From positions 111,743 to 175,742 of IMG/VR virus record IMGVR_UViG_3300032722_000004: a stretch of 64,000 bases of DNA. One strand, given 5' to 3'. The DNA comes from a virus. Shown here piece by piece: positions 132 to 64,000 of this stretch. The notes beneath the pieces were generated by a model, which was given only the letters and a program-made list of their open reading frames with translations, ran no database searches and had not been told where the DNA came from. The position numbers and the translations under genes are program-made. How positions within the stretch are numbered: the stretch's first letter is position 1; each line of letters begins with the position of its first letter.

Positions 132-139
132 TATTTATG
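132..139 (-). promoter_or_regulatory. Late-type promoter octamer CATAAATA
   Basis: Read on the minus strand this is CATAAATA, one base from the T4 late consensus TATAAATA. It lies 27 nt before the start codon at 105, and the phage encodes a gp55-type sigma factor in the same window. It probably drives the exported protein late in infection. Confidence 0.5.
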
Positions 140-179
140 ACCTATAGGACGATATATCATATTTAAAGGTTTTATAGGT

Positions 180-510: not shown

Positions 511-539
511 TACTATTTAATCATATATGACATTGCATG

Positions 540-40000: not shown

Positions 40001-43000
40001 CAACTTAGTTGGTGTATTAGGAATATATGAGCCGTATGTTTGGTTGTATTCTTTAATGATGACCTTATCGCCATCACCAAGCGGGCTAATGATAGTGAGC
40101 GAAGGGGCATCCGGACTTATTATATAATCTATGCCACTAGTAAGTTGTCGTTCAACTACTACACCAGCGACTGTTCTCAACACATAAACAAGAACGCCGC
40201 TATAGTTAGCAGTTTCAAAATTATAAACATTGCTTAATGGATAAACAGAAGTATCCAGTTGATTATTGAACGTGTACGTGTTGGTGCGGTACGGAGCCTT
40301 TGACGGTAACATGTCCGACCAAAAGAATGCGTTGATTTCGCTCTTTGCAGCAGTAATCTGGTCTAGTGCGCTATCCAGAATTTGCGACGGAGTGTATCGC
40401 TGAACGTAATCTGTGTTTTGTACCGTATATACTAGTAATTGTTTATACTTTATATATTCACGGCTGTTAAACATCAATGCGTCAAACAAGTTGTGCTGCG
40501 TGTTTCGGAAAAAGGTTCCCGGCAGTACTAATGACGCAGAGTTTTGAATTATCTCTGTACCATATGGTACTAAGTTACCGCAATCTCTAAAATTATTTGC
40601 GCCGAAAATTTCACCTGTCGTGTTTGGTGAATTAATAAAAATGTCTCTATACTGTGCACGGATATCACCAACATTGGCTGTAGTTAAATCAGCATTTAAT
40701 GGATTATTATTTAAATTAATAGGAATGTCGTAGTAACCGATTTGGCTTACTTGATCACTCAATACTAATACTTGAACTACCGTGCTAGTTGTTGGTAGTG
40801 AACTGCTACTGTTAAATGTAATTGTGGTAGTATTGGTACCAACTACCGTAGCATATGATGTTGGTGCTTGATATACATTGTTGATGTATACCTTAACTCT
40901 CGGCCAACCAGTTTCTCCCGTTGCTAAAGCAGGCAATGCTGCAACGTCACACTGGAAACTTAATGTTGGATTTGTAGGATCAAAGTCAAAACTGAATAAT
41001 TGATATTGCGTGCTATCAGCAATTGCGGTTTGCCAACCAAGCTGTCTTACATATGATGTACCTGATGTATAATTATATACGTAGCCAGTATTTACCTTTT
41101 GATTAATAGGATTATATCCAGACACATAATTAAATGTATCCAAATTCAGTGATACGTCGAAACTAATATCCCCTACGTTATCTATACCAGAATATGCGAT
41201 TGGAAAGCCTAATATAGGGTCATTGACTCCGCTACCAACACTGTATGCGAAAAGTTTACACCCCTTGAACGAAGTACTTTGATAGACCGAAGAATCCCCA
41301 AAAGAAATACCGTTGGCATCAAAAACGTCAAACAGCGGTGGTTGGTTAACCGTAACCTTTTGTTGTGCCTGTATCCACTTTATACCATCATAATAGTAAC
41401 TAGTGCCTTGGTGATAATAACCACGCTTAATTGCTAATTGTTCATCAGGGACAATATTTCCGTCTTCTGCTACCGTGAGTGTAATTACAGGTCTAGTATT
41501 AGGATCAATTACCGAGAAGTTTACGACATAGATTTTGTTTCTTACAGTAGAGCTAGAGTCAGCAGCAAATACGATTCTTGCTTCCGGAAACAAAGCATAG
41601 TTATCTAAAGTAGTGTCTGAACCCACAATAGACAAGTTTGAAGCAGAGGATATGTTTTTTGCGCCGGGCCATGAAACTGTTACAGTTAGCGTAGTAGTAC
41701 CAGTAATGTCGGTAATTTGTGTATTATTAGGAAGAATGCTTGAAGAATCTGCAACATACATTCCAATTTGGAATGTACCCGAAACGTTAGCAGCGTCTAC
41801 ACTAAAGGTAGTTGATGTTGCGGCGGTTACTCCTACAACCGACGCCGATGCTGTAGTAAGTACTTCTGTATCTGGGTAATAATTGTAAGATCCTGCTACT
41901 GTTGACAATGCATCAGTGTTATGGGTATCGATAAAATCGATTCCTGCGGCGCCTACAGAACCCGAATTGTATAATTTTAGATTAGGATAAAACTCGATTA
42001 TAGGGCGGACTGCTTTGTTTGCTTGTGTCGCGTAAGTAGTTGCGATATTAGGGTCGTTATTGTATTTTGCAGTTGCGTTGATGACATCGATGTGGAACCA
42101 ACGATTGCTTCTGGACCAAGCATTTTTATTGATTGCGTTTCTAGCAATAGTAATATAGTCTTTATCTGTTGGAATAAAAAGGTCCGAATCGTAATTGCTA
42201 ATGTCATATGGTGTAGAATCATATGGAATGTAATTACCATGTGTAAAATCTTCAGTACAGACTAGAGAGCTTACTGGAACTAACTCAATTGCAGTTCCTA
42301 CACCCTGTACATAGTATTGTCCCTGTAAATAACTTGTAGGAATAATGTCACCTTGAAAGTTAACTTTCAATCCATTAGTAAATACTACTCCACTAGATGA
42401 CGTATAATTAGGGTTACCCAAGATTTCAGTCACAACATTAATAGTATTTGTAGTATTGCTGTCAATGATTTTAATCACGCCGACAGAATCAGCAGATGTA
42501 CCGTCTTGATAATATAGAACATCTAACGGAGCAGTGATAACAGGAATTGGATTAATTACTCCGGTAGGTGAACGATAAAATGGTATATTGTTCCATTGAG
42601 TACCATATAATGGAGTAATTGTTTGATTTACAGGAATAGTACCATCTGGAACTAAACGAATAGTTGGGTTCTTTGGATCACCGATGTATTCAATCAAGTA
42701 ATAGTATTCAAACACCGTTGATGCGACACTTTCTTCATATAGACCCTGATTGATATTGGCAACCATAGTACCTGATCCAGGAACCAAAGTTAACGGAGAC
42801 GAAGCATCTAGAGTCAACGCGATAGTAAATGTACCTGAAGTAGGAATACTATGAACATAATAGACTTCCCCTGCAGTAACTCCACCGAATGTTGGGTTGT
42901 TAAAGGTTACAGTTTGACCGACTACTAATTGAGAGGTACTATCTGTAGTAAACGCAGAAGCATCACAGCTAGTTACATTTATAACGATTGGTGCGACGAG

Positions 43001-43987
43001 AACATCACTATTGATGTCCAGCGGTGTCTCGCTCAAGAAGGTCTCTGTGTTTCCCTTCTCTGCCGGAATACCATCATAATAGAACATGATGCGTAACCCT
43101 TCAAGCGCAGTCACGCCATCAATGTCATTAAGTCCTTGATATGTTACGCCATCCGTGTCAGTAAATGTCTTTAAAACTGCTCCATTTACTTGGTCAAACA
43201 ATTTAGTGCTGACTAGATCGACAGTGTTGTTACCTGGAAAAATATATTGATCTTGTGCATTTTTTTGCGGAACAGTAAACGTAACAACACCTTGACTTGC
43301 GCCATTGTTGTCTACTCCGTATACTTGTCTAGTAGTAAGATTCGATTGGAATGGCGAATATCCTGAGGTACCCGGATCCGTCTGAATCCAAAACTGAGAC
43401 GATTGATTTACAGCAAAAGTATAGGTTCCTCCGCGGATCAATCCAAGTGTAGGATTGATGCTACCGATAGGTTGTCCGACTAGAGCAATTTCATATCCAT
43501 TAGGTAGTGATGTGACTGCATAATTTTCAGTAGAGTACACGGTTGCTGCTGAGATAGTAACAGCCGGCGGCCCGACTGGCAACCAGTAATATTCATTAAA
43601 GTTAATGAGCTTGTCGAGGTTAGTGAAGGAGTCCCATGAATAAAACTGACTTTTGAATAGACGACTGTTGTTATCCGTAATACTATCTTGCATTGCAATA
43701 GAGTCGATGATGCCTGGATACGAGATAAAGTCGTTTGCTACAGATTCGTTTGGCTTAGTAAAAACTACACCCGGATCTAACTGATAGTTCACCCGAGTTT
43801 TTGTTGGTTCAACTACATAATTGTCAGTTGCATTTACACCATATCCAAACTTGCTACCTACATAGCCTTGAATCTTCATCGTATTCGGTGGATTTACGAT
43901 CTGATCTAGGGTCGCTGACAAAAATTCCGCGTTAGTTGAGGTTTGAAAAATCTCAGGAAGAAAAGTTATTGTCCGAATTCGGGCCAT
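25094..43987 (-). CDS. Giant tail/baseplate-associated structural protein (6297 aa)
   Basis: This single ORF takes up 30 percent of the window. The N-terminus (ARIRTITFLPEIFQTSTNAE, FLSATLDQIVNPPNTMKIQG, YVGSKFGYGV) is that of the long virion proteins found beside gp6 in T4-like phages of cyanobacteria and alphaproteobacteria. There is first a unique region. Residues about 2360-3100 have FG-GAP-like propeller repeats (FGSAVAYTSDMGYLIGDSGT, FGSAIKINEFDSVIISAPVG). Residues about 4000-5600 hold many copies of a 60-75-residue beta repeat with the core F.G..GG...TYYV..I....F.(V/L)S and similar (for example VTFNNPTFGGVTAGEVYYVH near 365). Within this lies a block at about 4860-5235 of Asp-box-like repeats (LTSVDGLVWTVA, TSTDTIIWTD). 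The C-terminus (TLTINVLEGDIIYVNGEAIR) is fibre-like. It probably forms a host-contact appendage of the baseplate. No enzyme motif is visible. Confidence 0.85.
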   Translation of the reverse strand: MARIRTITFLPEIFQTSTNAEFLSATLDQIVNPPNTMKIQGYVGSKFGYGVNATDNYVVEPTKTRVNYQLDPGVVFTKPNESVANDFISYPGIIDSIAMQDSITDNNSRLFKSQFYSWDSFTNLDKLINFNEYYWLPVGPPAVTISAATVYSTENYAVTSLPNGYEIALVGQPIGSINPTLGLIRGGTYTFAVNQSSQFWIQTDPGTSGYSPFQSNLTTRQVYGVDNNGASQGVVTFTVPQKNAQDQYIFPGNNTVDLVSTKLFDQVNGAVLKTFTDTDGVTYQGLNDIDGVTALEGLRIMFYYDGIPAEKGNTETFLSETPLDINSDVLVAPIVINVTSCDASAFTTDSTSQLVVGQTVTFNNPTFGGVTAGEVYYVHSIPTSGTFTIALTLDASSPLTLVPGSGTMVANINQGLYEESVASTVFEYYYLIEYIGDPKNPTIRLVPDGTIPVNQTITPLYGTQWNNIPFYRSPTGVINPIPVITAPLDVLYYQDGTSADSVGVIKIIDSNTTNTINVVTEILGNPNYTSSSGVVFTNGLKVNFQGDIIPTSYLQGQYYVQGVGTAIELVPVSSLVCTEDFTHGNYIPYDSTPYDISNYDSDLFIPTDKDYITIARNAINKNAWSRSNRWFHIDVINATAKYNNDPNIATTYATQANKAVRPIIEFYPNLKLYNSGSVGAAGIDFIDTHNTDALSTVAGSYNYYPDTEVLTTASASVVGVTAATSTTFSVDAANVSGTFQIGMYVADSSSILPNNTQITDITGTTTLTVTVSWPGAKNISSASNLSIVGSDTTLDNYALFPEARIVFAADSSSTVRNKIYVVNFSVIDPNTRPVITLTVAEDGNIVPDEQLAIKRGYYHQGTSYYYDGIKWIQAQQKVTVNQPPLFDVFDANGISFGDSSVYQSTSFKGCKLFAYSVGSGVNDPILGFPIAYSGIDNVGDISFDVSLNLDTFNYVSGYNPINQKVNTGYVYNYTSGTSYVRQLGWQTAIADSTQYQLFSFDFDPTNPTLSFQCDVAALPALATGETGWPRVKVYINNVYQAPTSYATVVGTNTTTITFNSSSSLPTTSTVVQVLVLSDQVSQIGYYDIPINLNNNPLNADLTTANVGDIRAQYRDIFINSPNTTGEIFGANNFRDCGNLVPYGTEIIQNSASLVLPGTFFRNTQHNLFDALMFNSREYIKYKQLLVYTVQNTDYVQRYTPSQILDSALDQITAAKSEINAFFWSDMLPSKAPYRTNTYTFNNQLDTSVYPLSNVYNFETANYSGVLVYVLRTVAGVVVERQLTSGIDYIISPDAPSLTIISPLGDGDKVIIKEYNQTYGSYIPNTPTKLGLYPSFYPEVVLDSDYTVPTYFIKGHDGSFTKLYGDYDETLGVLIDFRDQALLEFELRIYNNLKLSTTVPIERYEVVPGYFRSSTSTYSWNEFIQMYEPTFLNWIGQNRLDYKSQYYQKNNEFSYNYTNSGNKLDQAAIQQGYWRGVYEYFYDTTTPNETPWEMLGFANEPTWWADRYGPTPYTSDNGILWGDLEAGYIWNNGNPYTVPELARPGLSKIIPVDSNGDLLSPLIAIVGNYNPSTFQKDWVVGDDAPVELSYRRSSTWPFDLMRLFALTRPAEFFNLAVDLDNYKYNAEFNQYLVNDRSHLVPANIEIYGNGTAKTSYINWIVDYEKQQGVDATTNITTLLNNLDVRLVYRLAGYSDKTLLQFYVEKGSPNSNNATLLIPNESYSVLLYDNQPFDQIMFSGVVIQKNQGYWTVYGNSQTFAYFKTLKPINNGTYGSVDVLGTTVKYAKNYTDQVVLVPYGTKFYSTQGVVQFLMSYGAELESQGMLFNEVEQGIEVTWAQMAAEFLYWSMSGWEVGSLITLNPSATAINIDRPSAIVQPLTVQQTNFILNQNLYPIQLNDLCVERDDTLFHAHTLNQGDSMSYAQFNVSNFEHGIVFDNVTLFNDIIYNLTTGLRQNRIYARGVKTADWNGTVNAWGFILNQDNVLEWNGNLKYTKGVIVQYKNKYWTALKVIEPSATFNEQDWKLVNYNDIQKGMLSNASTRAYESTLYYDVYQANLEQDADLLAFSLIGYRPRDYLALVDLTDSTQVQVYQNLIKNKGTRNAVDAFQGATFPQGSISYDFYENWSILTKQYGGVLNENFVDFRINQTNLMGNPSIVSLTNGVYTVGSDQEVPLYNLFNYNTPPASPNVLSTLDTTVNSQLYPSAGYINVNDVKMSSYFFSGLPSAVDSTGAVVPINNFYVGEYFWLANFKNKWDVFRWTNIGQVIQVRNNTNGTATITFSSPHSLNKLDPMAIINFAQNVDGYYIVADVLNLYEVVINLSALNANQNSIQGRGLAFGFVSQRVASPAGIIPLASAENEFIKNTVWVDENTDGNWAVYRKSLNYAYQNQFEQADGGTFGSAVAYTSDMGYLIGDSGTGILYRYIYDSLAQAYLLKENKTGGTSFGSTIKYAQNLYAVSQPSGVSPAVTLYTLNHTVVTDRMLTYQTIAAPGGVTDWGSALAISGDTNWLYISDAQNNNVYVYRKQNIPLIAGYFVTGETYVITSLGSTDFTAIGAVDNKVGITFVATGAGAGTGTATQITYKQSTIISGSSLFSLGAGDGFGTALATSYDGSTLAVTAPFIDYSPTITNWGTTFVLQRTMQNFEAKQNSLPEQTTSFSLSWTPAAGATITASATSSVTNRITCSGSMTGFQINQPVVFAGSNFGSSNVSPNQVYYIHGISGSEISIKTSRSSTTPVNLTTAAGLSFSVYVQVDPLYVYLNGKLVTDDNYAVIGTSFIYYSSLIAGDILTVSDNQYFPAQQINSDYIDRTDIEFGYAVDMYKTGSTLLIGSPYEVDANDVEGAVYSYVNGGAEYGVVIGTNECNVTTNRTLLINGFAVNLSAGNAQSVANTINSSKIINVQAAATSDNKLIIQVINQNIAQINQKLTVYAYDSGTTLSELGINLYTKTQIIQSPHEQGASRFGSAIKINEFDSVIISAPVGTRYEGTFFDFTDDENLDNDTVFDNNATQFVDSYVNAGAVYMFDYIGLYNESLANPGAYVYAQSVNSKNIPYGQQPLYGTAIDFNENVVVVGSPNFYPVAVGGQVVVYNNATGVSDWSVYRNSAPIVDISKIQNTQIFSASTNQTLINLDYMDPLQGKLLGAARENLDFVSGTDPARYNSDLSTIIGSVWGAEHVGQLWFNTNNVRWMNYHQNDNVYNSKYWGAVFPGSDVAVYTWVASFVPPNSYPGPGAVYNPNLYVVSTVLNASNNAVPVYYFWVSNTNIIFEQTGKTLSDSVVASYISNPKGSGIAYMAPLLPNTFALYNSVDYFNANDSVFHIGFANGTTDDVAHQEYALIRENYQDDFLPGLPHGGTSAHTLAIQGGYTISETDVPYSLYAKLLDSLAGCDGAGAVVPNPWLPLAVQSGIRSRPNQSFFYDRYLAINNYLTYANTVLAQYPIAEIRPDATFLFQSGTYFNTADYWSYVNWWATGYSDSTKSSLQVPNYADLAALNVAVNTIVTVEQNGAGKFEVYRYDGYGVWTRIGLQNGTIAFDTSLWDYSSAKIGYGDNFFDTTPYDQYPSEETRYIVRALTEQIYISDLLIYRNTSLILLFDYIQSETTQSQNFLPWLNKTSLADVSHTIRELIPYEVYQTDNTAFLSGYINEVKPYHVVIKDFVFKYTGTDVYQGNITDFDLPATYNSSYQQYISPQLVYSNPNSQYEYLPTDSIWSTAPYTQWFQNHGVSITGQPNYNITVTTSYVSTSSTYIVVDNAHGFPINGTINIGNEIIGYSFVDRALNVLSGLVRGVNGTPIENHITGAQIYIDLPAALVLFGGRGYVEPPKVTAYIDTSIYPAPKTPAVLEAVMNLDSVLQINVIDPGEGYAVLPEIVIDPAEVIAFDNTAVNGTFHTIRLYAPNLQTGDAVLYKSGITASVGALANNQWYYINVLETVPTAIIALYTTYSDAINDKARVKIYPIGIGSDMTLSSGARASAITTALPIRENNTTIRFDRTTYGSQVQDWEAGAYYGSFFAGTLDNSSTTSSSSIGLESTEPPIDSILASAQGAVFEITDISNDQQLTWSSFIRYVSGTTASNHSITLIPQDNGGGQPNASGTTIGFYIGMPVKFQSTLSFGGLVSNQIYYVNTILSETEFTVSTTVGGPIFGVTDSVVGVYTMECFVGEVTNTAVMSINYPGILQVTATTATTNALTVPTSLVGTGGTLGFYTNLPVFFTEDVFGGIVANKTYYVTSVIDNQTFTMSATTNPVSTTAYSVDGSTDRVAVNDGTNFNINDIVVFTDMVIAGTSTTNFGGLVAGTFYYVSGVYLSSKEITLSATKNGAVLNLTTVVAASDTSAIMTNQKDTVALTTAVGSATMNVSLPISPGQINGQLFTIYETSGQYPNNIVSAGEVSSLISRSINATISAVNRIAVSASLGGTDFFYKNMPIRVTTNIGNLVAGTTYYIREYTGDGTNTVIEVTVTNTSSSGNVLSCGSTASLYIGMPIVFSGQSLGGIFVTETYYIQDIPSSTTFTLSLTVSGPAITLTNDNGVMTGAGDPFFTVSTTVNGSEFALSSDHTTVSTATQYVTGYTTFDLSYKLGGYSAVPTNAGSGFAVNNIITIPGTAVGGTSPANDITLEVNSVDALGGIINVIASGNVPSTSTKYYLKVISSNQLEVYSNPLLTVPVSGINFPFNGYTTTTVQSVSSNIITVNSTTGFNVNDAVVFTGNVSAGIVAGQTYYIVNNVNFTSNTLQISSTPGGTAITLSNASSLSYTMAKSGSYAFLPEPFYFNQSIVKFNNKVYICVISNNDKEFVIGKWEELDSGDRRLNAMDRVMGYYKPTVNMPGVDLTQLFDGVTYPNSIYLGNAFQPNQQFALDVVVQDQPFYPSQVNITAVEYHNNVYHAVANLPTYSALLTSADGITWAITQLANTDINVTNIVYNNGTYLISAANNATPILTSVDGLVWTVANTTEHSSQAAAYGNGCWISVGDNIVRSTDAITWNTVHTFDSIFEVELYGVSFVQTASFTGFVAVGNGLRYDYSTGVTQLVPTDIIITSADGITWTQVAPLTNKSLNSVVSNGTTIVALGENNVQYTSTDAINWFGNEALVTTFSSTNYIISTAPNAFTVNAAVQFSNSFSSINAGTTYYVKSIVSPTLVTISDTLGGSTKTLSADTVPINTLMYEYDANPSTVRDSVYVGGTFVSVGDNGLIKTSTDGYVWTLRSSGTTQNLNGITYDTDGITTFTVVGDNNTVLTSTDTIIWTDNSVFTVPPTVYDVKGADFPYGYGPEELVPGVVTDNLALTVVTRPGSNWDVTEYSHTGFNVVSLELAPTFGTQTVYTFAGAVQVPAQLTVQIIDPVTGLGTGITEGIDYTINWLNKTVILSTPLQFSPKKILRIDVYEVGNGDQLVQSSTDVNPIRVDDVTGFNEVYVDCNYSASVYQGSGVIRPGTSAIESQVLSTDSTTNRLTCTDISKFILNGPVTFLGVLFGGVVSETTYYVKSISTATDSIIISASIDPVTGLAGPAFDLVTASGDAMYVSIQSGNGQVWTTPIMYHNGNKLVLGATNIVIRTQSINNSLTTNSTFGFVPGTRITFSNTMFAGISPQTTYYVSSVINNNEFTISATNGGPVLPLPDTTGGAIFVTNDYAFGTQPNGIAAKIIFASDAYTTETDYIVYSLFGETTPQYGYAVPEIQYFTGTGSQTAFTLSNYVGENNPNNAVVEVNGVRKTVTTDYSINPNTNVITFTSAPVSNSSISVLTYNDTQQQYLTSQYGLTGTTVAPILSINTTLSPILATTTVTATSSTGNLITATSTAGFVVGQQIQFFGIAPLGGIKVDGTMYWVGSIISNTFTIKDQYGVAVPLSNASGTLLAEVGGISTTRVTTTIPHGFAENSLVRIDGTVGSIQLNNNIYYARVITDTVFDLYQSDVSGYTGYNPTLGATNYPVIGVSTYISGGYTWLTGSFNITTTTATATTSSNNTITVASTANLIVNTPVYFSENYTLNGTDLSFGGLVSGTEYYVSEIVNGTTFVVSDTYDGPSKTLTTSGPATINVTQWSQQYTDRIWVTVNGLRVPSSKLRINPANEVSILAEIQSTDKVIITSMIAHWTPEEMTYMNFVDKNGVASVYRSNTLTRTWLTESIQDLTTVIYVNDVNSVIQDVVFTATVPTVSVDGYYYIGLPADKRILTAVSVVNISTTPNQTISSNDYEVVLVDTAPTLKITPGSYISTGNTLTINVLEGDIIYVNGEAIRFNAVDIASNSLLGIQRGVNGTAKQSYIPAYTEVFGLLTSNKLDDVYYNQTWNSYTFNTIDGDPLQISTTTPALFLQTDIT

Positions 43988-44044: not shown

Positions 44045-44052
44045 TATTTATC
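44045..44052 (-). promoter_or_regulatory. Late promoter octamer GATAAATA
   Basis: Minus-strand GATAAATA overlaps the last codons of the gp6 gene and lies 58 nt before the start of the giant tail gene at 43987. The gene is thereby supplied with its own late promoter. Confidence 0.65.
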
Positions 44053-47000
44053 AATACTGTAATTCGGCGGGTGTGAGGGCCGGAACTACTAGTACGTCAT
44101 TTGCGGTGGCGGCGGATACGAAGATTTCATACGGTAGACACTTGATTTCATACAGTGTGCCGAACGGTTGTGTTGGGTCATTAGATACGAGTACCGCAGA
44201 ACTAATTAAATCTCCGCATTGCGCATGAAGATACGCACTTAATTCTGAGAAATAGAAAGTATCTCCGAAATTCCAATTATTGATGCTAAAGTAATTATTC
44301 ATAGCAGCTAGTACAGCACTTCTAATTTCACTGTCACTTGCATTGGTATTACTTGTTTTAATAACCTTAATTGTTCCACGTAAGTTCTCATCTGCTTTAG
44401 GACCGAAGAGCGGTTTAAAGACAACACTATTTACAATCACAGAATCCGATAGCATTTTATAATCTTGAACTTTACCGTATTCTTGGGTAAGTTCAGTTAT
44501 AGTAGGTACTGTGGGTTCAGGAACAGTATTTGTGGTATCAGTAATCCAATTGGTATATGCAGTATAGTATGCCTGAGGAACGACGTACAAATCAATAATA
44601 TTGGTCGTGATAGGATCTATACGATTGGTATCATTTGAGTTGTGTCTATATTGGAAGGACAGCCCTTGTCTACCAAACAACACAGAATATTGGTTCTGAA
44701 CAACCAAAATATATGAGGGTGTGGTCACTGTTTGATCTTGAACACTAGTATAAAAGTTACCTTCTGAATACGCATAAAATAGTTGACCTAAAGGATAATC
44801 GTACTTTACTACTTCGATGTTAGTAACTGTTGGATACTGGTATACTACAGAACTTGATGGTATAAGATATTGTCTTGTTAGATTGATTGGATCTTGTACC
44901 GTTTCAAAGAAAGCGTACACACCAGTGTTTGAAGATCCGTTAACATATCCAGTAATTTCATTAAAGAAGTCTGGATTTAATATTAATTGTTTGTTGTTAA
45001 CGTCAGTTGCAGCAACTTCTATTTGGAAATCGTTTACATAACCGTCAGTTTGAGTCGTTTGTCCCACAATGTTTATTTTGTAGTCTCTACCCAATGCGGT
45101 AGTAGAGTTAAATTGACTGTTTACTGACAGCACGTTTACAAAGTCTTGTATAAGTTTACCTGAATAAGGGTCATACACGATTCCGTCTTTTGAGAAAGTA
45201 AATCTAGTATCTGCAACTGAACCAAAATAGTATGTTAATGATTTGTATGTAACTATGTATCTATTGCCACCTTGACTGGTGAATTTTACGAAATAATTTG
45301 GATCGCCGGCAGTGCTTACTGACCAACGATCTTGATTTATCTGTAGAGCGTTGTTAAACACCAGAGTAAAATCTTGCTGCAACTCCATTTTAAATATACA
45401 TTCTTGAATGATTGCTGTGGACAGTGCATTACCAAATACCGGGATCACTTCACTGACGGTAACGCCGTCTGGTACATAACCATTAATGCTAACCGGACCA
45501 ACTCCGTTTGCAAACGTGCCAGCACCGTTATTTGACCCATCGCCTACTACATTTAGTACAGTAGACCAAATATAAGTCGAGTCTGTCGCGCCCGGTATAC
45601 CTGCAACCAAACGATTATTAATGTCAAAATAATAACCAGTCGGCGCTTGGAATTTACATATAGCGCCAGTAGTAATGTACATGATTCCATTAGTGCTTCC
45701 ATAAGTACCAATGGATATAGGATTAAGTTGGCTACCGGCTTTGGTATAAAAGTATCCAGTTTCCGATCCAGAATCGACTGAACTTGTATTCCAGTAAACT
45801 AAGTTATCACTAGTTGGAGTAGGAGCTACTACTGGATATCTAGTATAATTTTGAATATAATACTGGTTAGCTCTGTTTAGTGATAATACCGAAGATAGTG
45901 TGTCACTAAAGAACGCAATAATATCATTCGTACTATTGATCGTTAACGTCAGTACACCGTCCACTGTAGTTTGATATAGTCCACCGTCACTACCAAATGA
46001 ATTGGTACTTGAATACTTTCCAGTAGGATCGAGTAAATCTAGATTTTTAGATACACCAACAGATGCTCTATTAATAGATTTTGATTTAATTATAGAACTG
46101 TAAAGCGTATATGGGAAGTTATTATAATCTTCACCATTAACCATTCTATTTTGTGTATAGTAACGAGTTGGTGCACGTTGCTTAATGTCAGCCAGTGACT
46201 CACGAGCCTGTGCAGTAGAAACCGTCTGAGGAAGCGTCAACCCTATAGTCAGTGTTTGTGCCTTCCCTGTACTGTCAATATACGTGAACGAAACCGAAAT
46301 ACCATTCATTTCACTAGGAGAGATTGTGTAGGTCAGCGCATTACCTGCACGAACATATGATCTATACGTTCCTACTGGAATCTTAGAAAATACGCCGTCA
46401 CCGAAAATGTAGGATACTTGATCGTTGAAGCCGGAGTTCACAGAAAAGATTGTTTTGTTTGATGTAGTCGTTTGTAGATATGCATCAGCATAGATGTTTT
46501 CCACTTGAATCCATGGTGTTGTAGTTCCATCAGAATTAATTTGGTACAACCAAGTGTCGGTATTATTGACCCCTTGAATTGCGCCAATTGGAATTATTTG
46601 ATTTGAAATCTGCTGCTGCAAAGTGAAGTCATAGTTCTGTAGCGTGCCTTGCTTGAAATAGAAGAAAAATCCAGTTGCAGGTGATCCGAAGCCCAGTGTA
46701 TCATTTCGATATACCATATTGAATTTGCCGGACGGTGCAGGTGGAATCTCATATATGTAATCCTCATTTAACGAAGTGACACTGCATAGTTCAAAATTCA
46801 TAGTTACACCGTCAATAGTTGACGTGAATGGTACGATCGGTAGAACAGTAGGAGGAATTTGAATAGCGTACTCACTCGTAGTAACTCCTAGCAAGTCTGC
46901 AATATTACCTGGCTTACCGATACGTTGTGTTGAAACAAGTGCGGCGTTCCAGATTGTATTCATCTGTTCCAACCAATTCGGATTAGCTGGGTCATTCCAT

Positions 47001-47428
47001 AGTATAGGAATATTACTTAGATTTGTTCCATTAATGTCGGTAATGTTTTGTGTAGTAGAAAGACTTGAGACTTTCAGCCAACCCTGACCTGCAATGTTGC
47101 GCTTTGGTGTGTAGCTTACTAGGTTAGCTAGTTTAATAACAGAGTCGCGGCGCTCGGCAGTATCAATGAAGTTTTCACGAGTGTTTAGATCATCACGGAA
47201 AGCAAGCCCTTGTCCCATAAACGCGATAACATCGAGTAATGCAATATATTCAGACGATTCAGTATAATCATTGAACGTTTCAGGGTAGTATAGTTGCAAG
47301 TAGTCAATGAAACTTTTGCGCAGAGTTTCATAGTCGTAACTGCGAAAGTCCGCTTGTTGGAAGGTTTGATAAATGGTTTTCCAATCATTTAATCCAAATA
47401 ACGCTGACTGTCTTGAACTTGTTGCCAT
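44051..47428 (-). CDS. gp6: Baseplate wedge subunit gp6
   Basis: The 1125-residue protein begins with the conserved gp6 block: FGLNDWKTIYQTFQQADFRS, YDYETLRKSFIDYLQLYYPE, TESSEYIALLDVIAFMGQGL and RENFIDTAERRDSVIKLANL. The middle has a baseplate-J-like core (RAPTRYYTQNRMVNGEDYNN), and the C-terminus has the LRGTIKVIKTSNTNASDSEI and FGDTFYFSELSAYLHAQCGD blocks. It is longer than T4 gp6 (about 660 residues) because of insertions in the central part. gp6 dimers form the inner ring of the wedge, in contact with gp25 and gp53, both of which are encoded next to it here. Confidence 0.93.
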   Translation of the reverse strand: MATSSRQSALFGLNDWKTIYQTFQQADFRSYDYETLRKSFIDYLQLYYPETFNDYTESSEYIALLDVIAFMGQGLAFRDDLNTRENFIDTAERRDSVIKLANLVSYTPKRNIAGQGWLKVSSLSTTQNITDINGTNLSNIPILWNDPANPNWLEQMNTIWNAALVSTQRIGKPGNIADLLGVTTSEYAIQIPPTVLPIVPFTSTIDGVTMNFELCSVTSLNEDYIYEIPPAPSGKFNMVYRNDTLGFGSPATGFFFYFKQGTLQNYDFTLQQQISNQIIPIGAIQGVNNTDTWLYQINSDGTTTPWIQVENIYADAYLQTTTSNKTIFSVNSGFNDQVSYIFGDGVFSKIPVGTYRSYVRAGNALTYTISPSEMNGISVSFTYIDSTGKAQTLTIGLTLPQTVSTAQARESLADIKQRAPTRYYTQNRMVNGEDYNNFPYTLYSSIIKSKSINRASVGVSKNLDLLDPTGKYSSTNSFGSDGGLYQTTVDGVLTLTINSTNDIIAFFSDTLSSVLSLNRANQYYIQNYTRYPVVAPTPTSDNLVYWNTSSVDSGSETGYFYTKAGSQLNPISIGTYGSTNGIMYITTGAICKFQAPTGYYFDINNRLVAGIPGATDSTYIWSTVLNVVGDGSNNGAGTFANGVGPVSINGYVPDGVTVSEVIPVFGNALSTAIIQECIFKMELQQDFTLVFNNALQINQDRWSVSTAGDPNYFVKFTSQGGNRYIVTYKSLTYYFGSVADTRFTFSKDGIVYDPYSGKLIQDFVNVLSVNSQFNSTTALGRDYKINIVGQTTQTDGYVNDFQIEVAATDVNNKQLILNPDFFNEITGYVNGSSNTGVYAFFETVQDPINLTRQYLIPSSSVVYQYPTVTNIEVVKYDYPLGQLFYAYSEGNFYTSVQDQTVTTPSYILVVQNQYSVLFGRQGLSFQYRHNSNDTNRIDPITTNIIDLYVVPQAYYTAYTNWITDTTNTVPEPTVPTITELTQEYGKVQDYKMLSDSVIVNSVVFKPLFGPKADENLRGTIKVIKTSNTNASDSEIRSAVLAAMNNYFSINNWNFGDTFYFSELSAYLHAQCGDLISSAVLVSNDPTQPFGTLYEIKCLPYEIFVSAATANDVLVVPALTPAELQY

Positions 47429-57302: not shown

Positions 57303-58319
57303 ATGGCAAATCTATTCAAAAAAGCTGCGGTATTTACAGACCTGCACTTCGGAGCTAAAAGCAATAGTTTACAGCACAACCAAGACTGTACTGATTTCGT
57401 TGATTGGTTCATTACTAAAGCTAAGACAGAGAACTGTGAGACTTGTTTCTTTTTAGGTGATTACAATCACCATAGAGCAAGCATCAACATGCATACTATG
57501 CAATTTGGACTGCGGGCATTAGAGAAGTTAAGCGCAGCGTTTGACGTTGTTTACTTTATTCCCGGCAATCATGATTTATATTATCGTGATCGTCGGGATA
57601 TTCACTCAGTTGAATGGGCAAAACATTTACACAATGTAGTCATAGTAAATGATTGGTTCAAGCAAGATGATGTAGTCATAGCTCCGTGGTTAGTTGGTGA
57701 TGATTATAAGAAACTACCTAAGCTTAGCGGCAAGTATCTTTTCTCGCACATGGAGCTTCCTCATTTTTATATGAATGCAATGATCGAGATGCCGGATCAT
57801 GGTGAACTAAACGAAGAACATGTTGCTGGATTTGAGAAGGTTTATTCTGGTCATTTTCATAAGCGACAGTCTAGGAAGAACATTTGGTATATGGGTAATG
57901 CTTTCCCTCACAACTACGCAGATGCAGGTGATGATGCTCGCGGTATGATGGTTCTTGAGTGGGGCAAAGATCCAGAATTCTATTCTTGGCCAAAGCAACC
58001 TTTATTTAGGGTATACAAGTTGAGTCAAGTATTAGAGAACCCAACCGGCTTGCTTTTACCTAAATCTAATGTTAGAGTACATCTTGACATTGACATTTCA
58101 TACGAAGAAGCAAACTTTATTCGAGAGACGCTTATACCAGCACACAGTCTTCGTGAAATGGCATTGATTCCGATCAAGCAAGATCAGCACTCACAGGATT
58201 TGGCGCCTGGCGAAATCAAGTTTGAAAGTGTTGATCAAATCGTTGTAGACCAAATCACTAATATCGAGAGTGATTTCTATGACGCAAAACTATTACTAGA
58301 GATTTATCGTAACCTATGA
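57303..58319 (+). CDS. gp47: Recombination nuclease subunit gp47 (Mre11/SbcD-like)
   Basis: Calcineurin-type phosphoesterase with AVFTDLHFGAKSNSLQHNQD (motif D.H), FFLGDYNHHRASINMHTMQF (GD.N.H), VYFIPGNHDLYYRDRRDIHS (GNHD), then YLFSHMELPHFY and VYSGHFHKRQ (GHxH). All metal ligands of Mre11/SbcD are present. With gp46 it forms the nuclease that resects ends for recombination-dependent replication. The stop and the gp46 start overlap in ATGA. Confidence 0.95.
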   Translation: MANLFKKAAVFTDLHFGAKSNSLQHNQDCTDFVDWFITKAKTENCETCFFLGDYNHHRASINMHTMQFGLRALEKLSAAFDVVYFIPGNHDLYYRDRRDIHSVEWAKHLHNVVIVNDWFKQDDVVIAPWLVGDDYKKLPKLSGKYLFSHMELPHFYMNAMIEMPDHGELNEEHVAGFEKVYSGHFHKRQSRKNIWYMGNAFPHNYADAGDDARGMMVLEWGKDPEFYSWPKQPLFRVYKLSQVLENPTGLLLPKSNVRVHLDIDISYEEANFIRETLIPAHSLREMALIPIKQDQHSQDLAPGEIKFESVDQIVVDQITNIESDFYDAKLLLEIYRNL

Positions 58320-60394
58320 GTACTGTACTAAAGAATATCACTCTCCGTAATTTTCTGTCTATTGGCGCAGTTTGTCAATCAGTAAACTTCGATAGCAAAG
58401 AACTTACACTGATCTTAGGTGAAAATCTAGATTTAGGTGGTGATGGCGCTCGTAATGGTACCGGAAAGACGACCCTTATTCAAGGTCTTAGTTACGTTCT
58501 GTTTGGTACTCCTATCAACAGTATTCGTAAAGACAATCTCATCAATCGAACCAATGCTAAGGGCATGATGGTCACTTTGGAATTCAGTTCTGGTGGAATT
58601 GAATACAAGATCGAAAGAGGTCGCAAACCAAACATTTTGCGTTTCTTTGTCAATAATGCGGCGGCCTCTACGGATGAAGACGCCGCCCAAGGCGAAAATA
58701 AAGAAACTCAGATTGCAATCGAGCGTGCCATCGGAATGTCCGCTGACATGTTCAAGCACATCGTTGCTCTTAACACCTACTCTGAGCCGTTTTTGGCATT
58801 AGGTTCTAACGAACAACGAAAGATCATTGAACAACTATTGGGCATAACTCTGCTTTCCGAAAAAGCGGAGATAATCAAAGAAAAGCTCAAGGGCAACAAA
58901 GAACTCATTCAATTGGAAGAGTATAAGGTCAAAGCTATTGAGGAAGCTAACAAGCGTGTTCAGGAACAGCTTGACGGTCTTAAGCGCAGACAGCGCCTGT
59001 GGCAAGCCAAACATGACGACGATTTGGCTAGGTTAGCGCTTGATTATGATGAACTCAGCAAAATTGATATCGAGGCTGAACTCCAAGCACACAAAGAGCT
59101 AACAACATACAATAGCAACAAGAAAAAGCAAGAGCAGTATGAAGCTGTATTGGCTCGGCAGATCGCCTGGAAGCAAAAGCGCGACAAAGATATTGCTGAT
59201 TTACAAATTACCTATGACAAGTTGAGCCACATCGATATTGAAGCTGAGCTACAGGCTCATATTGATTTGGTAGAATACAATCGTAGAAAAATCGAACTAG
59301 ACTCTGTAAATAAAACGATTGCCTCTTTAGAATCTACACTCAAAAAAGAACGTTTATCGGTTGAAAAACTGATAAGCGAGGTTAAGACTCTTGAGGAAAA
59401 CAGATGTTATGCGTGTGGACAAGATTTCCATGATGACGGTCATGTTGAGGTCCTATCTAGCAAGCGTGCCTTATTGTCTACTGCACAATCTGATCTTGCC
59501 CAAACCCAAACTGAGTTAGAAAAAAATAAAAATTCTTTGTTTGTTTTGGGCGCGGTTCCTACTACTTATTACAAAACACAAACTGAGGCTATCAAGCATA
59601 GTTCAGAACTTGAGAACATTCAGAATCAAATTAACTCAAAGCAGGCAGAAACTGATCCATATGCTGAACAATTAGTGGAGCATTCTGGTGTGATTGTTGG
59701 TCCTGCGCCTATCACACACTATGATACTGAAGCCGAAGCGATTGAACATCGTAGCACAGTTGCCAACTTACTTCAGCAAATCGAAAACAAAGTAGCTGAA
59801 GCTGATCCATACAGTGAGCAAATTGATGATATGGAAAAGAAGGCTCTGCAAGTTATAAGTTTTGACAAAATAAATGAGCTTTCAAAATTAGGAGATCACT
59901 ACAAGTTTCTAGTAGACCTTCTAACTAGTAAAGACTCGTTTGTTAGAAAGAAGATTATAGATCAAAATCTATCATATCTTAATGCTAGACTTACGAACTA
60001 TCTAGACAAGATTGGCTTGCCGCATACAGTAGTGTTTAAGAATGATCTTTCGGTTGAAATTACTGAACTCGGACGTGAACTAGATTTTGATAATTTGTCA
60101 CGTGGCGAGCGGAACCGATTGATATTAGGACTGTCGTTTGCGTTCAGAGACGTTTGGGAAAATCTATATCATCCCATCAATACCGTGTTCATTGACGAAT
60201 TGATAGATTCTGGACTTGATACTATAGGTGTCGAGAACGCAATGGCAATTCTTAAGGACCTGTCTAGAAGACGCGGCAAGTCAATCTGGTTAGTCTCTCA
60301 CCGCGAAGAACTTGCGGGTCGAGTACCTAGCGTACTTAAGGTTGTGAAAGAGAATGGTTTTACAACCTATCGAAATGATGCTGAACAAGAATGA
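58316..60394 (+). CDS. gp46: Recombination ATPase subunit gp46 (Rad50/SbcC-like)
   Basis: Walker A is in DGARNGTGKTTLIQGLSYVL (about residue 45). Two coiled-coil arms (about 170-330 and 330-520) flank the zinc hook CYACGQDF (CxxC, about 362). The signature motif NLSRGERNRLILGLSFAFRD lies near 595, Walker B in NTVFIDELIDSGLDTIGVEN near 625, and the H-loop in WLVSHREEL near 660. An internal duplication is visible in the arm (IDIEAELQAHKELTTYN and IDIEAELQAHIDLVEYN). The last bases of the gene overlap the promoter of the following endonuclease (TGATAAATA). Confidence 0.95.
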   Translation: MSTVLKNITLRNFLSIGAVCQSVNFDSKELTLILGENLDLGGDGARNGTGKTTLIQGLSYVLFGTPINSIRKDNLINRTNAKGMMVTLEFSSGGIEYKIERGRKPNILRFFVNNAAASTDEDAAQGENKETQIAIERAIGMSADMFKHIVALNTYSEPFLALGSNEQRKIIEQLLGITLLSEKAEIIKEKLKGNKELIQLEEYKVKAIEEANKRVQEQLDGLKRRQRLWQAKHDDDLARLALDYDELSKIDIEAELQAHKELTTYNSNKKKQEQYEAVLARQIAWKQKRDKDIADLQITYDKLSHIDIEAELQAHIDLVEYNRRKIELDSVNKTIASLESTLKKERLSVEKLISEVKTLEENRCYACGQDFHDDGHVEVLSSKRALLSTAQSDLAQTQTELEKNKNSLFVLGAVPTTYYKTQTEAIKHSSELENIQNQINSKQAETDPYAEQLVEHSGVIVGPAPITHYDTEAEAIEHRSTVANLLQQIENKVAEADPYSEQIDDMEKKALQVISFDKINELSKLGDHYKFLVDLLTSKDSFVRKKIIDQNLSYLNARLTNYLDKIGLPHTVVFKNDLSVEITELGRELDFDNLSRGERNRLILGLSFAFRDVWENLYHPINTVFIDELIDSGLDTIGVENAMAILKDLSRRRGKSIWLVSHREELAGRVPSVLKVVKENGFTTYRNDAEQE

Positions 60395-60460: not shown

Positions 60461-61168
60461 ATGAATATTTATCTATATAAAAAGACCCACAACATAACCG
60501 GTCTTAAATACCTAGGTAAAACAACAGCCAAAGACCCGCACAAATATAAAGGCTCAGGTGACTATTGGAAAGATCATATTAAAACTCACGGATATGATGT
60601 TACGACTGAGATACTAGCAGAATGCAAAACAACTAAAGAATTAAAAGAGCGGGGATTGTATTATAGTAATTTATGGAACGTGGTTGAAGAAAAAGATGCC
60701 AACGGAAAGAAAACATGGGCTAATTTAAGACCAGAAACCAGTGACGGAGGAGGTAGATTACCGGGATTTAAGTTAACAGATTCTCACAAAGAAAACATAA
60801 GCATTGCCAAAACCGATGTTACTAACCCAAAGTTGAGTGAGCAGAGGAAAGGTTTCGGAAATCACATGTTTGGACAGAAGCGAGATGATATATCCGGAGA
60901 TAACAATCCGATGAAAGACCCTGCAATAGCGGACCGTGTTAGAAGATCCCATCTCGGTAAAAAACACACTGACGAGTCTAAACGAAAACGATCAGAAAAG
61001 CTTTCAGGCCACAACAATCCTATGTTCGGCAAAATCGGAGAACATAGTCCAAGGTATGGCAAAACATCTCCGCCCATGACGTGTGAACATTGCAGTAAAA
61101 CCTGCGCTAGACACAACTTTGTGAAATATCACGGAGATAAGTGTAAAAATAAAAACAACCGTATATAG
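60461..61168 (+). CDS. GIY-YIG homing endonuclease with NUMOD3 repeats and zinc-finger tail
   Basis: The N-terminal domain has NIYLYKKTHNITGLKYLGKT (GIY-YIG variant with LY and YLGKT), then the KYKGSGDYWKDHIKTHGYDV pattern of this subgroup. Conserved Arg/Glu positions are in KELKERGLYYSNLWNVVEEK. The middle has NUMOD3-like repeats: HMFGQKRDD, GDNNPMKDP, HLGKKHTDESKRKRSEKLSG, GHNNPMFGKIG. The C-terminus has CEHC, a spacer, then H..F..YHGDKC, similar in layout to the end of the HNH nuclease. It lies between gp46 and the resolvase-like gene. Confidence 0.9.
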   Translation: MNIYLYKKTHNITGLKYLGKTTAKDPHKYKGSGDYWKDHIKTHGYDVTTEILAECKTTKELKERGLYYSNLWNVVEEKDANGKKTWANLRPETSDGGGRLPGFKLTDSHKENISIAKTDVTNPKLSEQRKGFGNHMFGQKRDDISGDNNPMKDPAIADRVRRSHLGKKHTDESKRKRSEKLSGHNNPMFGKIGEHSPRYGKTSPPMTCEHCSKTCARHNFVKYHGDKCKNKNNRI

Positions 61169-61182
61169 ACAATAAATATCAT

Positions 61183-61755
61183 ATGCCTTCTAAATCTAAA
61201 GCAAAAGGAAGTTCATTTGAGCGGGAGGTCGCGGCCTTCTTGTCAGCGTTGTATTCCGCTTCATTTGTGCGTGTTCCCAATTCAGGCGCGTATATCGGAC
61301 GATCTAATTCTCATCGCAAAAACATACTTGATGCAAATCAAACTAAGTCTTTCAAAGGAGACATAATTGCGCCTGATGATTGGGTAAATTTTAACTCTGA
61401 ATGCAAGAGCTATGCTACTTTCCCTTTTCATCTTTTGCTCTCAGGTGATTGCAAAGTGGTCGAGTCTTGGTTAGATCAGTTAATGGAAGTATCTGACCCT
61501 GACAATCTAAACATATTGATGTTTAAGATTAATAGAAAAGGACGCTTTGTCGCCGTTCAAACAAAGTACACGTGGGTTACTGACAACTTCATTCTTTACA
61601 CCTCAGCTAAACACGGCGATTGGGTGTTCATAGAATTCGATAACTTTTTTAAACTCAACAAAGACCTTCTTAAAGCATATTCAGGCTCATCTACAAATAA
61701 TTCTTCTGGCTCACCCGACACCACGTCCGACAACATTATCTCCATTCAAATCTAA
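61183..61755 (+). CDS. PDDEXK nuclease, Holliday-junction-resolvase-like
   Basis: 190 residues. It begins KSKAKGSSFEREVAAFLSAL (the KG..FEREV helix of archaeal Hjc-type and phage resolvases), then SNSHRKN and FKGDIIAPDDWVNFNSECKS (GDI and ECK, the D and ExK of the active site), with FPFHLLL. The C-terminal 20 residues are Ser/Thr-rich and probably disordered. In T4-like phages a nuclease of this type can resolve or trim recombination structures. It lies next to gp46/47, in line with that role. Confidence 0.8.
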   Translation: MPSKSKAKGSSFEREVAAFLSALYSASFVRVPNSGAYIGRSNSHRKNILDANQTKSFKGDIIAPDDWVNFNSECKSYATFPFHLLLSGDCKVVESWLDQLMEVSDPDNLNILMFKINRKGRFVAVQTKYTWVTDNFILYTSAKHGDWVFIEFDNFFKLNKDLLKAYSGSSTNNSSGSPDTTSDNIISIQI

Positions 61756-62312: not shown

Positions 62313-62543
62313 TTAGAAGAATGGTAGCTGGGATTTCTTTGTAGTTTCTAGGTTGCTATCAATTATATCGTTGATAGCCTTTCTTTCCTCTATAGACATG
62401 TTGAGGATGTCCTCATATGAAGCGCCACCGCGCATGTACCATGCCATAGTAAGTGCAGATTTGCGTATACCCGCTACGTCTTTTTCATACTCATCTAGTA
62501 GCTTCTGAATCTCTTCGGGTTTAGAGCGTAGAAGCTTTAGCCG
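62313..62543 (-). CDS. Chaperone extension made by -1 frameshift (76 residues, T-like part)
   Basis: This frame has no usable start codon at its beginning; it is entered from the gp26-like gene by slipping back one base at 62543-62549. The extension reads RLKLLRSKPEEIQKLLDEYE, KDVAGIRKSALTMAWYMRGG, ASYEDILNMSIEERKAINDI, then ends KKSQLPFF. AWYMRGG..Y and the IEERKAIND helix look like the C-terminal half of a tail assembly chaperone. The fusion product would be 348 residues (272 from the zero frame plus 76). The reading is clean, without stops, to TAA at 62313. Confidence 0.8.
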   Translation of the reverse strand, partial: RLKLLRSKPEEIQKLLDEYEKDVAGIRKSALTMAWYMRGGASYEDILNMSIEERKAINDIIDSNLETTKKSQLPFF

Positions 62544-62549
62544 AAAAAA
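62500..62549 (-). promoter_or_regulatory. Programmed -1 frameshift signal: T TTT TTC plus stem-loop
   Basis: The zero frame reads GAT TTT TTC GGC TAA, placing the slippery heptamer T TTT TTC (62549-62543) three codons before the stop. After a 6-nt spacer (62542-62537), AGCTTCT (62536-62530) pairs perfectly with AGAAGCT (62506-62500), and an inner CTCT/AGAG pairing fits within the loop. Heptamer, spacing and stem match known -1 frameshift signals. Confidence 0.85.
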
Positions 62550-63358
62550 TCAGAAGGGTTCAATGAGAAATCTTGCTCGTATTCGTGTCCGCAGCTATCA
62601 CATTTTATCTTTAATGGCTGTGGTGTGGAACTTTTCTTAAGTTCTGTAGCGTAGTCTCTAATAGAAGTAAAAGTATTTCGATCACAGTTCTTGAGAAAAT
62701 CTAGAATAAACTCATTTTCTTGTACCTTGATTTCTGGTGTTTCTATATATTCAATACCTAAACTTAATAATTTCATAGTCAACAACGTTACCCGTTCAAG
62801 TGCATCACCACCTATTTTATTTTTTTCCTCTTCTGACATATTTTCCATAGAGGCAAACAGTTTTTGCATTTCAAACTGAGCTATAGAAGCTTCATTCATT
62901 TCTTTATAAACCAACGGTCTAAACTTAATTTTTAGATCACCTACTTCAAATTCCTTATTGTAATCCCCTGCCTTAAGGGTAGACAATATACCAACTAAGC
63001 TGATGCCGTACGGAGAAAGTTCGTTACATTTTGGACAGATCGAATCTATGTCCAATTGATCACCGTTGGAAGCAGACTTAATTGCGATGAGGATAGCATC
63101 TAAATCACTGCTACTAATAGCCCATGGATCTTTGATGTCAGGTACACAGCTTTTTATTAATTCAGCAATTGCAGTACCGTTAAACAACGAATCCGGAGTT
63201 CTGGCTGTAATTTCATCAATAGCAGTCATCGGATAGATTGGTAATTCGCCGGTTACTGGAATGTTTATCACGTCCTCTGAGTAGCTTGTGGTTCCTGAGG
63301 GGAGTTTTAGGTAAACAGCAGGTCTTCTGAAGTACTGTCTTAGCGGGTTATTGTTCAT
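62537..63358 (-). CDS. gp26: gp26-like baseplate hub / tail assembly chaperone, zero-frame product (273 aa)
   Basis: Starts NPLRQYFRRPAVYLKLPSGT, followed by LPIYPMTAIDEITARTPDSL and CVPDIKDPWAISSSDLDAIL, the conserved T4 gp26-type block. Two CxxC pairs, CPKC (about residue 128) and CDSC (about 255), suggest a zinc ribbon. The end is FSLNPSDFFG. The gene is next to the tape-measure-like gene but divergent from it. In T4, gp26 is called a hub component; the frameshift extension found here argues for a chaperone role like lambda gpG/gpGT. Confidence 0.85.
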   Translation of the reverse strand: MNNNPLRQYFRRPAVYLKLPSGTTSYSEDVINIPVTGELPIYPMTAIDEITARTPDSLFNGTAIAELIKSCVPDIKDPWAISSSDLDAILIAIKSASNGDQLDIDSICPKCNELSPYGISLVGILSTLKAGDYNKEFEVGDLKIKFRPLVYKEMNEASIAQFEMQKLFASMENMSEEEKNKIGGDALERVTLLTMKLLSLGIEYIETPEIKVQENEFILDFLKNCDRNTFTSIRDYATELKKSSTPQPLKIKCDSCGHEYEQDFSLNPSDFFG

Positions 63359-63453: not shown

Positions 63454-64000
63454 ATGGATCCAGAAATCGCAGCAGAGCTAAGCGCACAGCTTAAAGAGTT
63501 ATCAGATATTATTAGCCGGGACGCCTCTCCTGCAATAAAAAATCTCAGCGAATCTTCTGATAACGCTTCAACTCGCGTAGGTAGCGTCAACAAAGCATTC
63601 AGATCGTTAGACGATGCTGCCGGTAGCTTCGCTAAAGCATTACTTAACGGTACAGGTGAGTTAAACAAATATACATCAGCTTTAGATAGCATGGGAACCG
63701 CCGCAATACAAGTAGGAAAAGCTTTGGGGCCCGTTGGGGTTGCTGCAGGTTTAGTAGCTGCTGCATTTACTAAAGTAGTGAGTGCAGCGACCGCCCAAAC
63801 TGATAATTTACTAAAATTTTCTGATGGTATCAGTAGGTTAGGTGCTGTTAACACTTTCACCACTAACGAACTTCAAAAGATGGCTAATAATGCTGGTTTA
63901 GCCTCAGGTGATTTTCAAAAAATGCTCAAACCTATGCAAAGCATGGGTAATTCCTTCAATGCATTAGGTAATGGAGCCGCCGATTCTACTAAGAAGTTTG
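63454..64000 (+). CDS. Tape-measure-like tail protein, N-terminal 182 residues (runs off the window)
   Basis: Begins MDPEIAAELSAQLKELSDII with a helical, Ala/Ser-rich run typical of tape measures. A hydrophobic segment follows (IQVGKALGPVGVAAGLVAAA, about residues 87-106), then LLKFSDGISRLGAVNTFTTN and LQKMANNAGLASGDFQKMLK. No stop occurs before the window end. Position beside the frameshifting chaperone gene matches the usual chaperone/tape-measure pairing, though here the two are divergent. Its T4 counterpart would be gp29; homology is inferred from composition and context. Confidence 0.72.
   Translation, partial: MDPEIAAELSAQLKELSDIISRDASPAIKNLSESSDNASTRVGSVNKAFRSLDDAAGSFAKALLNGTGELNKYTSALDSMGTAAIQVGKALGPVGVAAGLVAAAFTKVVSAATAQTDNLLKFSDGISRLGAVNTFTTNELQKMANNAGLASGDFQKMLKPMQSMGNSFNALGNGAADSTKKF

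Follow-up and report, generated by a model that had tools for sequence, protein, structure and literature searches.

A probable tail assembly chaperone gene with a predicted -1 frameshift

With high confidence, on the evidence of sequence comparison, a gene near the end of IMG/VR virus record IMGVR_UViG_3300032722_000004 is read here as encoding a pair of tail assembly chaperones in a large phage of the T4 superfamily, with a long form that would be made by -1 frameshifting of the lambda G/GT type. One message would very probably give two tail-building helper proteins through ribosomes slipping back one base. The locus has a slippery heptamer in phase, an open -1 frame with a coding extension, a covarying downstream stem and homology to T4 gp26. 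The gene lies in the last 64 kb of the 175,742-base virus contig, and this whole stretch of 64,000 nucleotides is called the window. The features of the locus are:

62537..63358 (stop included), minus strand: zero-frame gene for the putative short form (TAC-N) of gp26/PF12322 type, 273 aa, from the ORF call
62543..62549, minus strand: slippery heptamer T TTT TTC in phase X XXY YYZ, read from the sequence, same site in relatives
62537..62542, minus strand: 6-nt spacer GGCTAA, which holds the zero-frame stop, spacing constant across alignment A2 (75 rows, no gaps)
62530..62536, minus strand: 5' arm of the downstream stem, AGCTTCT, from fold and covariation
62500..62506, minus strand: 3' arm of the downstream stem, AGAAGCT, from fold and covariation
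62511..62526, minus strand: inner 4-bp stem CTCT/AGAG within the loop, from the fold, variable among relatives
62313..62543, minus strand: -1 frame extension (TAC-C), with 76 codons past the shift and a stop, from selection and conservation in relatives
63454..64000, plus strand: tape-measure-like gene, divergent, running off the window end, from phrog_4704 (E=4.7e-6, first 182 aa)

The 273-aa ORF ends in GAT TTT TTC GGC TAA, with the heptamer codons third and second before the stop. The -1 frame stops at 62315-62313, and 76 codons after the two Phe give a predicted fusion of 348 aa. The outer stem has 7 perfect base pairs and a loop of 23 nt. A first-pass annotation of this DNA had proposed the heptamer just before the gp26 stop, the 6-nt spacer with a 7-bp stem, and a 76-codon open frame leading to a 348-residue fusion. 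All of these were borne out: the heptamer is in phase at 62549-62543, spacer and stem arms lie at 62542-62537 and 62536-62530/62506-62500, and the -1 frame reads on to 62313. The annotation had also described the second frame as having no start codon of its own. This holds at the junction, where the first ATG/GTG/TTG comes 92 nt after the stop's first base, but not deeper inside, where ATGs occur.

The 273-aa protein matches PF12322 (T4_baseplate, the gp26/gp51 family) with E=3e-18 and 66.8 bits, the curated cut-off being 24.5, and the 'baseplate hub' profile phrog_150 with E=4.8e-17. Pfam and PHROG scans of the 78-aa extension gave nothing significant, and no Rfam family matched at the frameshift locus.

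From these features we infer slippage. Most ribosomes would stay in the zero frame and make the 273-aa gp26-type short form. In a minority, at T TTT TTC, tRNA-Phe in both ribosomal sites would re-pair one base back, aided by the stem 6 nt downstream, and translation in the -1 frame would give the 348-aa long form. The proposed chaperone role in the window phage follows the model of lambda gpG/gpGT: the short form would cover the tape measure protein, the product of the neighboring gene, and tail tube protein would be recruited through the C-terminal domain of the long form.

Conservation of the slippery heptamer

Two IMG/VR scans, one of them covering the best 80 of 577 relatives, gave a clade set of 104 loci with a complete gene end. 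These represent 77 distinct proteins, since the two scans share some contigs. In the first scan 24/26 loci were used, L025 and L027 being left out with gp26 cut at the contig end. The clade reaches jumbo size, because two of its contigs (L018 and L024) have 352,012 and 524,565 bases. Among the matches listed, T TTT TTC is in phase in all 104 clade loci (77 distinct proteins), and the stop starts 10 bases after the heptamer start in 103 of them and 19 bases after it in L186.

The heptamer extends to much more distant phages. A tblastn search led to 61 phage records, of which 16 jumbo phage records were examined; each of these carries, in the correct phase and at the same Phe-Phe, a heptamer that leads into an open -1 frame (T TTT TTC in 14, T TTT TTT in 2). 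A scan based on GAP32 found it in 11 of 12 jumbo-type contigs, at least three of the 12 being GAP32, CBB and BF, already among the jumbo records; the twelfth (L167) ends at the contig end. T TTT TTC is also present in 79/80 cyanophage-type loci (best 80 of 598 relatives). The lone locus of these 80 without it, L126 (1501-2367), has a site two bases shorter and carries gp26 and extension in one 289-aa frame, through natural fusion or through an error in the sequence. P-SSM2, S-PM2 and KVP40 have T TTT TTC at the same site and phiM12 and HTVC008M have T TTT TTT. The T-run is longer than 6 in XacN1, RAS14, phiM12 and HTVC008M. The search of gp26 homologs suggested in the first-pass annotation thus finds a conserved heptamer and a -1 extension in the clade, in jumbo phages and in cyanophage-type loci.

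Codon choice at the site serves as the main control and is uniform. A codon with T in third position precedes Phe-Phe, whose first codon is TTT, in 77/77 clade, 72/72 cyanophage-type and 17/17 jumbo unique genes among the matches listed, counts in which the rows are related by descent and which are taken outside L126 and L167, the two loci without the heptamer; naive probabilities computed from them should not be read at face value. The amino acid encoded by the preceding codon is not fixed (D, S, N, A, H, R, Y or T). Other Phe-Phe pairs of the same genes are slippery in 0/8 cases in the clade, 4/70 in the cyanophage type and 1/3 in jumbo phages, again among the matches listed.

Coding capacity of the -1 extension

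The -1 frame has exactly 78 codons in 103/104 clade loci among the matches listed; the remaining one, L233, ends at the contig end. For the analysis of selection we used the 77 unique extensions, chosen as complete 78-codon ones, and left L233 out. Both other frames contain stops in 77/77 of these unique extensions. For the part of the extension that follows the gp26 stop, the -1 frame has a pN/pS of 0.39 versus 1.06 and 1.57 for the other frames, and the median dN/dS of the extension is 0.30 over 263 close pairs; all these values refer to the clade among the matches listed. By these sequence measures, the clade extension is under purifying selection. The same protein is recognizable in jumbo phages, where 17/17 extensions match the clade model (E from 1.7e-4 to 9.3e-26), and the comparison of clade and jumbo extensions by hhalign gives E 1.4e-26. 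The suggestion that the -1 frame encodes a plausible protein is borne out by purifying selection together with conservation in relatives. The invariant FFR seen in alignment A4 was dropped as evidence and adds nothing, because the heptamer and the next bases encode FFR in the -1 frame.

The downstream stem

The stem was studied in the 75 distinct ungapped rows of alignment A2. The outer 7-bp stem is paired in 94.7% of 525 cells, and changes on both sides are found in 4 of its 7 pairs. Loss of conservation of heptamer or stem had been named beforehand as evidence against frameshifting, and both are conserved. The outer-stem covariation score of 0.205 was reached by 0/500 shuffles, and slid versions of the stem attained at most 0.087. 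On one of the five measures, the number of cells with both-side changes, the outer stem had 13 versus 14 for a slide of -2. At least 5 of the 7 outer-stem pairs appear in the minimum-energy fold of 65/75 rows. A count of pairs showed that pairing of the inner stem is much weaker and more variable than that of the outer stem.

RNAalifold predicted no consensus structure from the 75 rows of the alignment, so the evidence for the stem is that of a structure named beforehand and then counted. Folded singly, the window stem has z -1.96, with 6/200 shuffles at least as good; four of five relatives folded in the same way lie between z -3.19 and -4.24, and the fifth (L227) at -1.87. As the single window fold is only modestly better than its shuffles, the case for the stem is comparative. 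Conservation of the stem arms is due in part to the -1 frame protein, but the paired changes are not explained in this way. On the present reading, the stem would stimulate slippage.

Start codons, alternative explanations and deposited annotations

Start codons close to the junction are scattered among relatives. A start codon at most 25 nt past the first base of the stop is present in 17/77 unique clade members (14 of them ATG) and lacking in the other 60 among the matches listed. PA5oct has no start codon up to 150 nt past the junction. In the cyanophage type, an ATG lies 2 nt after the stop codon in 76/80 loci (best 80 of 598 relatives).

This distribution bears on the best surviving alternative, in which the extension is a separate short protein like the cyanophage 'gp51', made by termination-reinitiation at the gp26 stop or just beyond it, with the T-run there by chance. 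The frequent cyanophage ATG, the separate 'gp51' annotated at the extension in P-SSM2 and the stop/start overlaps annotated in XbC2, PBECO4, Kaldavass and BF all suit such a reading. We nevertheless regard it as unlikely, given that the first start codon of the window is so far downstream, that most clade members and PA5oct have none near the stop, and that the heptamer is kept at synonymous sites regardless of any start codon. In T4, RB43 and CP220, moreover, the C-terminal domain is fused to a gp26-type domain in one protein, which argues against a separate short one. A separate start codon for the second frame in homologs had been expected to count against frameshifting. Such cases exist in part, as the 14 clade ATGs and the cyanophage-type loci show, but do not overturn it, since loci with and without this start alike retain the heptamer. 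Re-initiation may add a separate short product in some phages, as a second route.

A second alternative places the slippage in transcription: RNA polymerase would slip on the T6 run, and mRNAs of differing length would encode the long form. Transcriptional slippage on homopolymer runs exists, and the site is such a run, of 6 T and longer in XacN1, RAS14, phiM12 and HTVC008M, but six T is short for this mechanism. The run also ends in C in 77/77 clade, 70/72 cyanophage-type and 15/17 jumbo unique genes among the matches listed, and the X XXY YYZ phase, the 6-nt spacer and the covarying stem are marks of ribosomal frameshifting. We therefore give polymerase slippage an even smaller chance than re-initiation. 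Least credible of all is a decayed or mis-sequenced fusion gene, with the frame change an assembly error or a pseudogene, for while the frame change itself and the in-frame reading of L126 would fit, the idea is refuted by conservation, the same geometry being found in 104/104 clade loci (77 distinct proteins, among the matches listed) and in isolated phages, and purifying selection on the extension argues against a pseudogene. The -1 ribosomal frameshift put forward in the first-pass annotation, and its comparison with lambda G/GT, are both supported by the conservation of heptamer, frame and extension over very divergent phages.

Deposited annotations treat the extension in different ways. 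In the jumbo phage and cyanophage records examined it is a separate tiny CDS ('hypothetical protein' or 'gp51'), a CDS starting inside it, or absent. The RaK2 and PA5oct records list no CDS for the extension, and in the GAP32 and CBB records a CDS begins inside it. What is annotated as a separate small gene of family phrog_18291 (L032 3337-3546 and L036 3367-3543) is the C-terminal part of the predicted frameshift product. Recognition of one frameshifted gene thus corrects jumbo-phage and cyanophage annotations of the long form's C-terminal domain, and phrog_18291, of unknown function, gains a likely role.

Structure comparisons

The AlphaFold models are confident, with a mean pLDDT of 87.5 for the gp26-type protein and 87.3 for the extension, which is all-helical. 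The best viral structure match of the gp26-type model is a T4-like baseplate hub assembly protein. Structure searches of the PDB found no significant match for either model, and none with E<=0.001 by Foldseek. The HK97 TAC (2ob9) stood at rank 27 with Z 5.6, rmsd 4.6 and 101/107 residues, tied with unrelated helical entries. A sequence search of the PDB found no relative of the gp26-type profile (best E 0.23) or of T4 gp51 (none up to 1).

Neighboring genes and other features of the window

The tape-measure-like gene starts 95 bases from the frameshift gene, on the opposite strand. It had been noticed in the first-pass annotation and is supported by the phrog_4704 match, a tail length tape measure family; its match to Pfam TMP_2 (0.0012) is below the cut-off. 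In a relative (L002) that is identical to the window across the shift site and extension, the tape-measure-like gene encodes at least 968 aa and has a phage lysozyme domain (PF00959, E=7.8e-16). The window also carries genes for a late sigma factor and a baseplate wedge protein, which are consistent with a T4-type phage.

Several other genes were found in the window. There is a permuted tmRNA at 135-547 (minus strand), detected by ARAGORN as tmRNA* with the tag ANENDAYEGLALAA and by Rfam as tmRNA_permuted (E=4.6e-23) and alpha_tmRNA (E=3.7e-21). A carbamoyltransferase gene is present at 3844-5325 (minus strand; PF16861 E=1.9e-46, PF02543 E=4.7e-32). A single ORF of 6297 aa (25094-43987, minus strand) adjoins a baseplate wedge-type gene (44051-47428). 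One homing-endonuclease-like gene (60461-61168, plus strand; phrog_314 E=1.1e-12) is flanked by an SbcC-like gene (58316-60394, phrog_77 E=5.2e-104) and a RusA-like resolvase gene (61183-61755, phrog_244 E=8.3e-16).

Relation to T4 gp26 and gp51

The hub assembly chaperones gp26 and gp51 of T4 share with the window gene the PF12322 domain, which is found in both T4 proteins (8.8e-64 for gp26 and 3.9e-52 for gp51). When 19 whole phage records were searched, T4, RB43 and CP220 had two PF12322 matches each, and the remaining 16 had one. In T4, unlike in the window phage, there are two separate genes, and gene 26 lacks a terminal slippery T-run; RB43 and CP220 likewise have separate short and long genes instead of a shift site.

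The match of the gp51-type profile phrog_150 is split in four phages, its C-terminal part falling in the -1 frame where gp26 ends: P-SSM2 (1.4e-10), S-PM2 (1.4e-8), HTVC008M (2e-6) and phiM12 (7.4e-5). Conversely, a model of the cyanophage-type extension matches the C-termini of gp51 in CP220 (1.6e-8), T4 (1e-5) and RB43 (1.2e-4). T4 gp51 thus ends in a domain that cyanophages encode in the -1 frame, and the long form seems to be made by frameshifting in most groups sampled and by a separate gene in T4. The proposal that gp26-like hub proteins are the tail assembly chaperones is supported, as the cyanophage-type extension is the counterpart of the gp51 C-terminus.

The extension of the window clade is more distant. 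Its comparison with the cyanophage/gp51 domain by hhalign gives a profile-profile probability of 28% and a single-comparison P of 1.2e-4, and an hmmsearch of gp51 with the clade extension model gave nothing above decoys. Among cyanophage-type extensions, the jumbo extension model reaches only HTVC008M (6.3e-5). The clade extension and the gp51 C-terminus likely share an origin, because position, frame and slip site coincide.

In a tree of 37 rows, T4 and RB43 gp26 group with their gp51 (support 93/85) and KVP40 falls outside this group; the tree is unrooted (midpoint root for drawing only), its branches are long, and its placement of the two CP220 genes is unreliable. KVP40 retains the shift site within Straboviridae, the family of the two-gene arrangement of T4 and RB43. 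We lean toward a history in which the Phe-Phe -1 shift is ancestral to the T4 superfamily, gp26/gp51 of T4 and RB43 come from duplication, and the jumbo stem is an invention of its own; since the tree is unrooted, the direction of change, from an ancestral shift to two derived genes, is our interpretation. If the shift is ancestral, the phages from cyanophages to jumbo phages, with contigs above 500 kb, form a natural series for studying what sets the ratio of short to long chaperone.

A different junction was seen in loci of the Ackermannviridae type. Of 19 loci fetched, 18 (L249-L266) all have a -1 extension after GAR ATT TTC ATY TAA, without the canonical heptamer; the other (L267) is a distant relative with canonical T TTT TTC, and ViI itself is L057. 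This junction may be either an unusual slip site or a place of re-initiation. The extension of ViI matches the cyanophage-type model at 2.3e-4.

Comparison with known systems

The abstract of the study that identified the T4-like chaperones is said to describe frameshifting as conserved in several T4-like groups, with T4 using genes 26 and 51. That study (Vladimirov, Gautam and Davidson 2022, Virology 566:9-15) is taken here as two citing papers present it. It is credited with identifying the T4-like tail assembly chaperones. PMC10885494 names it as the source for some T4-like phages having distinct genes for the short and the long form, and PMC12846349 attributes to it the poly-T -1 shift signals in TAC-N genes of T4-like phages. 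The principle of frameshifting in T4-like chaperones is therefore already published. The first-pass annotation was not aware of the shift as standard annotation for T4-like phages, and the deposited annotations examined here do not show it. A literature search found no paper on the shift site in RaK2/Asterius/Mimas-type jumbo phages, which is weak evidence, few subscription papers being covered. Compared with Vladimirov et al. as cited, the present work adds the jumbo lineage (RaK2/Asterius/Mimas/Atu_ph07 group), an uncultured clade and the covarying stem.

In Atkins 2016 (PMC5009743), G-T frameshifting is described as widely conserved 'except T4', and the findings here extend chaperone frameshifting to close cousins of that exception. 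A T4 review cites genetic studies that place gp26 in the hub itself, which speaks against the chaperone reading. For Vandenendeviridae and Andersonviridae, PMC12846349 describes a TAC with a conserved -1 shift and a second ORF routinely annotated apart, as here; the motif (GTTTTT), the heptamer and the phage families are different.

Lambda makes a minor long form by -1 slippage close to the end of its short gene (Atkins 2016, PMC5009743). The window gene resembles G/GT in its predicted -1 slip near the end of the short gene and in its adjacent tape measure gene. A gene of this type is usually just upstream of the tape measure gene on the same strand, whereas the window pair is adjacent but divergent, the chaperone gene being transcribed away from its neighbor. 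The heptamer also differs, being T TTT TTC here and GGGAAAG in lambda. A downstream stimulatory structure is not universal among G/GT-type chaperones; a covarying structure that may serve as one is present here. With the T4-like chaperones, as they are known from the citing papers, the window gene shares the gp26-type short form, the predicted long form with a C-terminal domain and the poly-T signal, and the covarying stem is the feature described here from the window clade.
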